Below, piece after piece: positions 20,651-50,579 of a stretch of DNA of 64,000 nt. Source of the stretch: Apus apus (taxonomy: Eukaryota; Chordata; Aves; Apodiformes; Apodidae); the NCBI RefSeq assembly GCF_020740795.1, contig NC_067282.1, positions 147,794,858-147,858,857 on the forward strand, in the 5' to 3' direction. Both the position numbers and the translations under genes were made by a program. How positions within the stretch are numbered: position 1 is the first letter of the stretch; every line of letters starts with the position of its first letter. The notes below the pieces were generated by a model. It was given only the letters and a program-made list of their open reading frames with translations, did no database searches and was not told the DNA's origin.

Positions 20651-20810
20651 TTAAGAGAGGTTTTCAAGGGCCAAGCAGAGGTTTTTCAGTTCCTCTTTCA
20701 TTTGATGGAGTGCCCTCTTGATCTTCTGAGGTGTGCTCATAACCTCTATGCTGCTGGTGTATGGGTTGTAGTGCAGAGAAAAAGGCTTTTTGATCTTCAT
20801 TGCGTAGTTT
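20651..20810 (-). CDS. TH2: TH2 coding exon 12 (C terminus)
   Basis: 160 nt of coding sequence after CCCCCACAG, ending in TAA at 20653-20651. It encodes [20 protein letters not shown] and ends CLALENLS. The last about 30 residues form a leucine-rich amphipathic helix matching the tetramerisation helix of TH1. As in TH1, this is a single exon, whereas PAH has an intron here. I found no AATAAA on the minus strand within about 600 bp downstream. Confidence 0.94.
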
Positions 20811-47800: not shown

Positions 47801-50579
47801 CTAACCTAGAAAAATAAATACTCTGGCCATTTACATGCCAAGCACGTTAATTCTAGCATCATTACATCCAAAATAAACCTAGTTACTTTTATGATTACTG
47901 TTCAAAATCATAAGAAAAAAAGAAAATATGAAGAAAACTATGTTCTTAATATTCTGCTGCTTTAACCATAAACATCCTCTTTTAACAGTCCCTTGCTTTT
48001 ATTGTAGATCCCAGTCCCAGCACAGCTGAAACTAACTGCTAATTCTGAGCAAAAACCTTTCCATTCTCAAGGAAATCCTAAATAAATGCTTCTTCAGCTC
48101 CAAAACCATCCTTGGCTCTCCAGTTTCCCTCACAACAGTGATACCCTTTTGATATTCCCACAGTCCCTGAGAACACTTTGGCATGGACTGCCTCTTAGCA
48201 CCACTCTGAAGGTGAATTTCAAACAACACCCAAAGGTATTCAAACAGGACTGTATTAGCTAAAAGGGACATGGAGTGCCTGGCCTTCCCAAGGGTTGGAA
48301 ACATCATGTCAATTCAGTATTCAGATAACTCAACCTGTGAACTGGATTCTCAGCCTTCTCATGTATCAGGGGCATCTCTGGCATCCTCAGGATTGTATTA
48401 AAGGTCTCTAACAGCTTGTACTCACAAATCACCTACCTGCCTGTAAATGAGAAAAATACCAGTCTAGCTCTGGCAAACTCACTTTCCACTCTGATAACTG
48501 GTGCTAGTGGTGACTCAAATTCAGCACAGGCAGTGGAGTAGCCACTTGTAGCACTCTGCCAGATTAAATACAGCTCCTAAAGGGCAAGCTTTGAAGCTGC
48601 ACAACATCTAAACAAGATTTTTTTGGTGCTTGGGAAAATGCCTGATGCTCTGTTACTCCAAATTTTGCAGTGGGTCTGTTCTCCACAAAAATGCTCATTC
48701 TCCTAGCCTTCCCTGCAGGCTTTCTGCTCACCCTCTTCCCTCTTGTACTCTGAAAGCTTCTTCAGCTGATTGCATTTAGCTCTTTTCAGTGAAGGAGCAA
48801 TCTACCTACAGACAATATGACTGGACCCAAACAGTGCTGGACACCACAAACAGGCAGCTGCTGCTGCTTTCAACAAAACCGACACAATACACTACAAGTA
48901 AATGAAACATTCAGACCCTCTGTAGCATCATAGTGTTCACATCAGGTGTCTGTTTTCACCTTGGAGCAGTCATTTCTCTGCATAGCCCTCAGCCCACAAT
49001 TTTCCTGTCTTTGAGGAGTTTTCAGTTTCTCCTCAGCTTCTTGTTCTGCTGCTCTCTCCTTCTAATCTCCTCTTTTTGCTGGAACCTTTTTTTCACCTCA
49101 GTGCCACTAGCTAAGGCAAAGTGCCTCCTTTTCCGCACCAAAGGGAATGGGCCAATTCAGGGAAAACAGCCATGCAGTGAAGAAAAATTAATGAATGCTT
49201 ACCTGATTTCCAGACTATCCAAATTACTATTATGAAACTAATGCTAAAAAAATTACTCCAAAAGGAAACAAAACATCACTAACAGATGCATATACTTCTT
49301 ACCTTTGTCTTCTCTGCTAGTTTTCACATCCTCTGCTACTCTCTTTAAGGAGATGATAAGGATACTAACATCAGCGCTGTGAACTTCACATTCAACAAAA
49401 ATGTCAAGATCCTCAGCAGAATTCTTGGGTTTTTTGGCTCGCCTGGTTTCAAAGTGATGGATCTGAGTTTCAAACACCTGCAAGAGCCAGATGTTCATAT
49501 GATGAAACTTCTCCAAAGGCTGAAAATCCAGGTAAGTTTAGATCTACAGTGTATTTAAAACGTGACTAAAAGAAGTCTTAACAGCTAGTGCATGTGAAGA
49601 AACAAAGCCTAATAATGCTCAGTTTAGAAGGAGCTAAAATACAGGCAGAGTAAACACTGTAGAATTACATAGAGATGGATGGAGATGAAAGATGAGATAC
49701 TGCTGACGGTACCATTTAATCTGTGCAGAAATAACGAATGAGTGGCTGGGTAACTCTTAAGACCCTGGCAGAATAAAAGCAGATCTATTAATGTGTAATA
49801 GCATCATAATCATTAAATAATTATGAAGGATTAAAAATAAGTAACAAATATAACACTTTTCTTTTGAGTTATTCATTTGTACAAATGAGAGTGAGCACCT
49901 GGTAGGGATATTTCAAGTGCCCAGAATGTATAATGCCTGTAGGGCTTACAGCTCTTATATTTTCTGTATCTCCTGCCAAATACGCAGAGAACATTTGTTG
50001 GCTTCTAACATCCCCACAATCTGAGTGCTTGAAATACTGACCCGTCATTTAGTCGTGGCTGGTCACTGCAACTGTGAAAGAGAAATAATAGATTGGTATG
50101 TGCTCTATGCAGCCCTTATATAAAAATATGATTCTTTTAAATATCTGTGTTCAGTTGCTCCTTCCTTGCAGAACACACTCCTTCACCTGGAGAGGCAAGC
50201 CAACCTGTCTGAGCAGCTGCAGCAAAACAAGGACATTGAGAAAGGGGAAGGCAGCTGAAGGCAAAAGTCAGGCAGTGAGCAAGAGAAGGGTGAGGGAGGG
50301 GAAAATGCCAAGTGGTAGAGGTGAAGGCAACAGAGAGAGAAGAGATTGTTCAGTGGAAGAAGAGAATGCCGAGCTCTGTACCTCAAAGACTTTGGCTGCC
50401 TTAGAGAGCTCGTTCTTCCTCACGTTGCAGAGGGTAAGGGTCAGGATGACAATGGCTCTGCCATCCTCCTGATTGGAGTCCAGGCTGCCTCTCCTGTTCA
50501 ATGGCTCCATGCCATGCATCTCTGTCTCCCTACTGGCTTCTTCCTTTTGGCCTGAGACTCCCACAAAGTCAGTCTTCAT
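20651..50579 (-). CDS. TH2: Tyrosine hydroxylase 2 (TH2), 12 coding exons, apparently complete
   Basis: Predicted tetrahydrobiopterin- and Fe(II)-dependent tyrosine 3-monooxygenase, the cytosolic, rate-limiting enzyme of catecholamine synthesis (tyrosine to L-DOPA). Exons on the minus strand, 5' to 3': 50579-50382, 49477-49303, 47181-47093, 43573-43506, 42323-42273, 38748-38603, 32821-32686, 32035-31966, 30258-30202, 27916-27821, 22459-22326, 20810-20651. Joined they give 1380 nt, that is 459 residues plus TAA, with every junction in phase and GT-AG introns. Seen: N-terminal RRGS (Ser32), an ACT-like regulatory region (about 41-123), VPWFPR at 125-130, HELLGH with His292 and His297, Glu337 in VEFGLCKQ, Asp386 in YQDQ, and a C-terminal leucine-rich tetramerisation helix (about 430-459). 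[16 protein letters not shown] and YQDQ favour tyrosine hydroxylase over PAH or TPH. TH2 rather than TH1 is inferred from adjacency to PAH and the short N terminus. The start codon and any upstream exon are the weakest part. Confidence 0.9.
22326..22459 (-). CDS. TH2: TH2 coding exon 11 (substrate-specificity loop)
   Basis: 134 nt, equal to PAH exon 11, between TTACAAAG and GTAAGC. It encodes [34 protein letters not shown] and DAKAKLQ. Asp386 in YQDQ corresponds to rat TH Asp425, the residue that favours tyrosine hydroxylation; PAH has Val there. Confidence 0.94.
27821..27916 (-). CDS. TH2: TH2 coding exon 10 (third iron ligand)
   Basis: 96 nt, phase 0 at both ends, between TTAACAG and GTATGT. 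It encodes [20 protein letters not shown] and ends GELM. Glu337 is the third Fe(II) ligand, and its 40-residue spacing from His297 is the same as in rat TH (336 to 376). Confidence 0.95.
30202..30258 (-). CDS. TH2: TH2 coding exon 9
   Basis: 57 nt, the same length as PAH exon 9, encoding [19 protein letters not shown] between TTTAG and GTAAGT. TH1 has [19 protein letters not shown] here. Confidence 0.94.
31966..32035 (-). CDS. TH2: TH2 coding exon 8 (iron-binding HELLGH)
   Basis: 70 nt, equal to PAH exon 8, between TTTCCAG and GTAAGA. It encodes [18 protein letters not shown] then AQFSQ. His292 and His297 of HELLGH are two of the three Fe(II) ligands. Confidence 0.95.
32686..32821 (-). CDS. 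TH2: TH2 coding exon 7 (catalytic core)
   Basis: 136 nt, the same length as PAH exon 7, between CCTTTGCAG and GTAAGT. It encodes [35 protein letters not shown] and SAPMHSPEP. Two changes from the usual family sequence are visible: Ala252 where TH1 and PAH have Val in LRPVAG, and Ser272 where they have Cys in QCTQYIRH. Confidence 0.93.
34361..34436 (+). repeat. A-rich and (GA)n low-complexity tract
   Basis: A long run of A broken by single Gs, then AGAGAGAGAGAGAG and more A-rich sequence. In TH2 intron 6. No element body is recognised next to it. Confidence 0.8.
35829..36090 (+). mobile_element. CR1 LINE 3' fragment within TH2 intron 6
   Basis: Contains CTGCATCAGGGGAGGTTTG, GGACATTAGAAAGGATTTAT, GGACACTGGAACAGGCTTCC and GACTACATGATCATTGTAGG, then GTCCCTTCCAGCTG. 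These are CR1 3' sequences of a subfamily that ends in a pentameric tail. The orientation is opposite to the host gene TH2. Confidence 0.85.
36085..36143 (+). repeat. Pentanucleotide microsatellite (CTCTG)n / (CTATT)n
   Basis: About 59 bp of pentamers: first TTCTA/CTCTG units, five or more clean CTCTG copies, then CTATT units. It sits directly on the 3' end of the CR1 fragment and probably grew from that element's tail. Confidence 0.9.
38603..38748 (-). CDS. TH2: TH2 coding exon 6
   Basis: 146 nt after a long polypyrimidine tract and CAG, ending in G before GTCAGT. Residues 195-242 include [32 protein letters not shown] and DVSRFLK, typical of tyrosine hydroxylase. Confidence 0.93.
42273..42323 (-). 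CDS. TH2: TH2 coding exon 5 (51-nt micro-exon)
   Basis: 51 nt between TTACAG and GTGAGT. It encodes [16 protein letters not shown] with split Ala and Trp codons at its two ends, matching GDPIPRVEYTAEEIATW of TH1. Together with the next exon (146 nt) it equals the 197 nt of PAH exon 6, so an intron divides what is one exon in PAH. Confidence 0.9.
43506..43573 (-). CDS. TH2: TH2 coding exon 4
   Basis: 68 nt, equal to PAH exon 5, bounded by CTCAG and GTAAGT. It encodes [19 protein letters not shown] then NYR, which aligns with the [20 protein letters not shown] region of TH1. Confidence 0.92.
43979..44013 (+). mobile_element. Very short CR1 3'-terminal fragment
   Basis: TTCCTTCCAACACAAACCAT followed by ACTATGATTCTAT is the CR1 3' end signature. 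Only about 35 bp can be recognised; the sequence 5' of it is not clearly CR1. It lies in TH2 intron 3. Confidence 0.55.
45081..45360 (-). mobile_element. CR1 LINE 3' fragment within TH2 intron 3
   Basis: Reverse-complement CR1 3' end: CATAGAATCATTGAATCATT, GGATCATCAAGTCCAACTGT and further inward CACTTCCCTGTTCCAGTATC. It is the same subfamily as the copy at 53418-53825 (shared GTTAACCTAGCACACNGCCAAG) and in the same orientation as TH2. Confidence 0.88.
47093..47181 (-). CDS. TH2: TH2 coding exon 3 (start of catalytic domain)
   Basis: 89 nt, the same length as human PAH exon 4. It encodes residues 125-154 beginning with [16 protein letters not shown], a near match to TH1 (VPWFPRKVSELDKCHHL), and ends in HP before GTAAGT. 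Confidence 0.93.
49303..49477 (-). CDS. TH2: TH2 coding exon 2 (ACT-like regulatory domain)
   Basis: 175 nt, starting in phase 0 after CTCTTGCAG and ending with one base of a split Val codon before GTAAG. Residues 67-124 include [12 protein letters not shown], matching the IHHLETR stretch of TH1, and [16 protein letters not shown], matching the end of the TH1 regulatory domain. Confidence 0.92.
50382..50579 (-). CDS. TH2: TH2 coding exon 1 (N terminus, regulatory region start)
   Basis: Gives 66 residues from MKTDFVG to SKAAKVFE, followed by a GTACAG donor. It contains NRRGSLD, a basophilic-kinase site corresponding in place to the PKA site RRQS (Ser40) of TH1, and then the first strand of the ACT-like domain ([11 protein letters not shown]). 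The chosen ATG at 50579-50577 is the first in the open frame with coding character. ATGs at residues 21 and 24 are alternatives, and the one at 24 has the better Kozak context (G at -3 and +4). The sequence upstream stays open, so a spliced upstream exon is not excluded. Confidence 0.7.

Follow-up and report, generated by a model that had tools for sequence, protein, structure and literature searches.

An intact gene beside PAH that is very probably the sauropsid ortholog of TH2

The window, that is, the whole 64-kb stretch of DNA analysed here, holds on its minus strand a gene that we refer to as TH2, preceded on the same strand by the end of a PAH gene and accompanied by several repeats. The TH2 exons were first placed by tblastn with a human TH query, whose exons were matched in order along the minus strand from 50.5 to 20.6 kb. 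Joined exactly at their splice sites, the 12 coding exons that run between 50579 and 20651 give 459 stop-free codons and a coding sequence of 1380 bases including the stop, with a GT donor and an AG acceptor in 11 of 11 introns and compatible phases. The twelve exons, both ends and the 459 residues of the initial annotation were reproduced in this way, and so were the reading frame, unbroken by shifts or stops, and the three iron ligands (the two histidines of HELLGH and the glutamate of TVEFG); the strand, on which that annotation was silent, is minus. As a random stretch of 459 codons of the same base composition would be free of stops with a probability of only about 2e-13, and given the TH and Pfam matches described below, chance is excluded as the source of this frame. 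The coding exons are as follows.

50382..50579, minus strand: coding exon 1, start of the regulatory region, RRGSL at residue 29, start codon uncertain
49303..49477, minus strand: coding exon 2, part of the ACT regulatory domain, chicken TH2 forward-primer site
47093..47181, minus strand: coding exon 3, VPWFPRK, start of the catalytic domain
43506..43573, minus strand: coding exon 4
42273..42323, minus strand: coding exon 5
38603..38748, minus strand: coding exon 6
32686..32821, minus strand: coding exon 7
31966..32035, minus strand: coding exon 8, HELLGH, two iron-binding histidines
30202..30258, minus strand: coding exon 9
27821..27916, minus strand: coding exon 10, TVEFG, iron-binding glutamate
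22326..22459, minus strand: coding exon 11, PYQDQ, Asp at the position of rat TH Asp425
20651..20810, minus strand: coding exon 12, stop codon, chicken TH2 reverse-primer site

The ATG at 50579 is the most upstream one in the open frame, which stays open further 5′ with no earlier ATG, and additional in-frame ATGs are present at residues 21 and 24. Depending on which of them is the start, the true length of the protein may be 459, 439 or 436 residues. A search for a separate TH1-like first exon between TH2 and PAH returned weak matches only (best E 0.75). Some 0.9 kb 5′ of the TH2 start, positions 51501-52250 form a G+C-rich patch (0.61-0.64) with a raised CpG ratio (0.44-0.48), inside which a GGGCA tandem repeat occupies 51826-51854; the patch may represent either regulatory DNA or a repeat. 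At the other end of the gene, neither AATAAA nor ATTAAA occurs within 1.65 kb after the stop (19000-20650, minus strand). Downstream of the stop, the variant AATATA is reached after about 0.9 kb, ATTAAA first appears at about 2.0 kb and AATAAA at about 2.9 kb.

The neighbouring gene is represented by the last five coding exons of PAH, no earlier PAH exon being seen in the 64-kb window.

62780-62724, minus strand: PAH coding exon, fifth from last
61707-61612, minus strand: PAH coding exon, fourth from last
61274-61141, minus strand: PAH coding exon, third from last
57997-57882, minus strand: PAH coding exon, second from last
57272-57229, minus strand: last PAH coding exon, with stop

These exons (57229..62780) are open, are separated by GT-AG introns and encode 148 residues that are 81.1% identical to human PAH. 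Between the PAH stop at 57229 and the TH2 ATG lie 6.6 kb, PAH being the upstream gene on the same strand. A PAH-TH2-IGF1 gene group has been described (PMC11222543), and the linkage to PAH expected of TH2 is found here on the PAH side, the only side of the group that is seen; a search for IGF1 in the window gave no convincing match (best E 1.4). For three introns at the 3′ end a comparison is possible, and these occupy the same positions, with the same phases (0, 0, 2), in TH2 and in PAH, which fits an ancestral structure common to both genes, as we infer. PAH differs from TH2 in having one extra intron in its last coding part, as well as a valine at the specificity site where TH2 has an aspartate.

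The protein encoded by TH2 groups with the TH family. It matches the TH chain 6zvp of the PDB (E 2.6e-187), and TH takes the top six places among the 46 PDB sequences matched. Pfam recognises Biopterin_H (7.8e-176), the catalytic domain with its His-His-Glu iron ligands, and TH_ACT (2e-34), the TH-type ACT domain PF21417 scoring 117.7 bits against a cut-off of 27; both domains are shared with vertebrate TH1. Among the seven NCBIfam models listed, the best is TIGR01269 (tyrosine 3-monooxygenase), with 643.7 bits versus 541.3 for animal PAH and 530.2 for TPH. This score falls 11 bits short of the curated TIGR01269 cut-off of 654.65, a shortfall that would not be surprising in a paralogue that has diverged; since that cut-off is a threshold by which bacterial and archaeal proteins are named automatically and not a biological feature of the enzyme, the gene is still filed as TH. 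Compared with human TH, the protein is identical at 228 of 335 positions over the catalytic domain, including the iron ligands, and at 267 of 459 overall. Exon 1 is weakly similar (17/66), though it holds the RRGSL motif, which resembles the PKA site RRQSL (Ser40) of TH.

Taken singly, three of the 12 exons do not have human TH as their closest sequence: exon 4 shares 13 of 22 residues with TPH1 versus 10 of 22 with human TH, exon 6 shares 33 of 49 with TPH2 versus 32 of 49, and in exon 12 human TH and PAH tie at 20 of 53 each. Columns specific to one class, each class being defined by one or two mammalian references, agree with TH in 37 of 81 cases, under half of the TH-only set, but with TPH in 6 of 49 and with PAH in 8 of 84. 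Despite exons 4, 6 and 12, these columns and the tree described below rule out that the gene is a PAH or a TPH.

A different matter is whether a gene that is TH2 by descent might act as a tryptophan hydroxylase and serve serotonin synthesis, as Ren et al. 2013 proposed for zebrafish th2 (cited in PMC6585609). In keeping with this, some chicken TH2 cells co-express TPH1, according to the same source, exons 4 and 6 show slightly more identity with a TPH than with human TH, and exon 6 agrees with the chicken TPH1 forward primer at 18 of 21 bases. The residues of the active site speak for tyrosine instead. The position of rat TH Asp425 holds an aspartate in the TH2 protein, as in TH, whereas PAH has a valine and TPH an isoleucine, and the residue after the active-site tyrosine is a tryptophan rather than the phenylalanine of TPH. 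All of the 12 catalytic and pocket positions checked are the same as in human TH. The aspartate at rat TH 425 is linked to L-DOPA formation and tyrosine specificity, and its presence here argues for tyrosine as the probable substrate. Together with the low count of TPH-only columns (6/49), and with later studies which, according to PMC6585609, do not back the zebrafish proposal, these features make a tryptophan hydroxylase function very unlikely.

It is still less probable that TH2 has been silenced recently, with exons that look intact. The gene is described here from its sequence rather than from transcripts, and AATAAA and ATTAAA are absent from the first 1.65 kb past the stop, both of which would be compatible with silencing; 459 open codons, 11 canonical introns and the retention of the 12 checked catalytic and pocket residues all stand against it.

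The distinction between TH2 and an ordinary TH1 gene mislabelled as TH2 was approached with a maximum-likelihood tree, in which the protein joins human and rat TH with support of 100/100 and falls outside the human-rat pair with 98/96 in a tree of seven rows, or 100/98 in one of six rows from which the partial PAH row was removed. In the seven-row tree it is flagged as a long row of unsure placement. The initial annotation had looked to a tree to separate the protein from TH1, which the rows used here allow in part: the protein groups with TH and outside the mammalian pair, but as the other TH rows are those of human and rat, the tree by itself would fit either an avian TH1 or a TH2.

In the seven-row tree the path from the TH2 protein to human TH is about 0.83, roughly four times the 0.22 that separates the PAH of the window from human PAH, and over the same exons the TH2 protein is 60.8% identical to human TH (90/148) versus 81.1% (120/148) for the two PAH sequences. 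Provided that TH1 changes at roughly the slow pace of PAH, the usual TH1 of a bird would be expected to lie much nearer to human TH, and the protein thus looks too diverged to be one. The location points the same way, as the gene adjoins PAH, while the reported place of TH1 is the INS/IGF2 group (PMC11222543).

Ten primers were tried in all, among them those for chicken TH2 (XM_001235000.3) and TH1 given in PMC6585609. For the chicken TH2 reverse primer, the site at 20745-20764 in the last exon, exon 12, agrees at 19 of 20 bases; about 7e-6 such sites would be expected by chance for one primer. The chicken TH2 forward primer, aligned by eye, matches 14 of 20 bases in frame at 49402-49421 in exon 2, where chicken has SADDFD and the present gene SAEDLD; its six mismatches are no better than those of chance sites elsewhere in the window. 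The differences at this site suggest that the DNA belongs to a species other than chicken. Neither of the Xenopus th2 primers matches the window. The best site of the chicken TH1 forward primer in the window has six mismatches, and the reverse primer has three at an unrelated place and five at the homologous site in exon 8.

Thus, although the protein groups with TH and has the TH domains and the 12 checked residues in common with it, a TH1 identity is rejected on the PAH neighbour, the distance and the primers, and we regard it as extremely unlikely. The putative assignment to TH2 rather than TH1 draws on the distance, the neighbouring gene and one good primer. The identification of an intact TH2 in the initial annotation is therefore upheld by the tree, the distance, the PAH neighbour and the chicken TH2 primer, and we consider the gene, with a probability of about 95%, to be the ortholog of TH2 in a sauropsid, most likely a bird, in its expected place next to PAH.

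The repeats of the window bear on its origin. The open reading frame at 2610-3083 (plus strand) looks like a piece of a CR1 LINE reverse transcriptase, with no Pfam match and with a CR1-like tail after it, and so does the one at 5693-6406 (minus strand), which matches Pfam RVT_1. Copies of the core AGGTCCCTTCCA lie at 3091, 11679 and 36062; the tail ATTCTGTGATT follows the one at 3091 only, and the copy at 36062 lacks AACCC. CR1 elements are expected to end in ATTCTRT units, but a search for two of these in tandem found none. A further CR1-like fragment, judged by eye from a chance alignment, lies at about 52034-52141 (plus strand), and the open reading frame at 52067-52468 matched no Pfam family. 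Rfam gave no match at the gathering score in the window. Together with the chicken primer match, the repeats suggest that the window is from a sauropsid, and most likely from a bird; as mammals too hold old relatives of CR1, they serve as an indication only. A mammalian origin of the window was judged unlikely from the CR1-like repeats. That the window comes from a lineage thought to have lost TH2, such as a mammal, or that this TH2 has changed its range of substrates and would thus represent a new functional variant, is extremely improbable.

The initial annotation had drawn the significance of the gene from the loss of TH2 in placental mammals. This loss is indeed reported (PMC6585609, PMC10433395), with a scope that varies among sources, being extended to therians in PMC11222543 and to mammals in PMC11774857. 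The significance attached to it is not borne out: TH2 is reported to be present in birds (PMC11222543, PMC10433395) and is expressed in chicken, so that in a sauropsid window its retention is the expected state and the placental loss makes it no surprise. The intact TH2 next to PAH is real, correctly named and already known, and is an ordinary arrangement for birds. The PAH-TH2 pair with its matching introns is a tidy case of the published duplication history (PMC11222543), which helps annotation and is unsurprising.

As to function, the TH2 product would be a tetrahydrobiopterin- and iron-dependent tyrosine 3-monooxygenase, converting tyrosine to L-DOPA and hence providing dopamine, and the synthesis of both is the likely role of TH2 as a second catecholamine-synthesis gene. 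Expression of TH2 in hypothalamic cells that contact the cerebrospinal fluid is reported for chicken, Xenopus and zebrafish, and in chicken these cells transcribe TH2 without TH1 (PMC6585609); by analogy with chicken, the enzyme might act in hypothalamic cells of this kind that do not express TH1. In the paraventricular organ, a biochemical characterisation of TH2 activity is called for by a chicken study of 2025 (PMC11774857). With an intact TH2, dopamine could be made in brain cells which commercial TH antibodies reportedly miss (PMC6585609).
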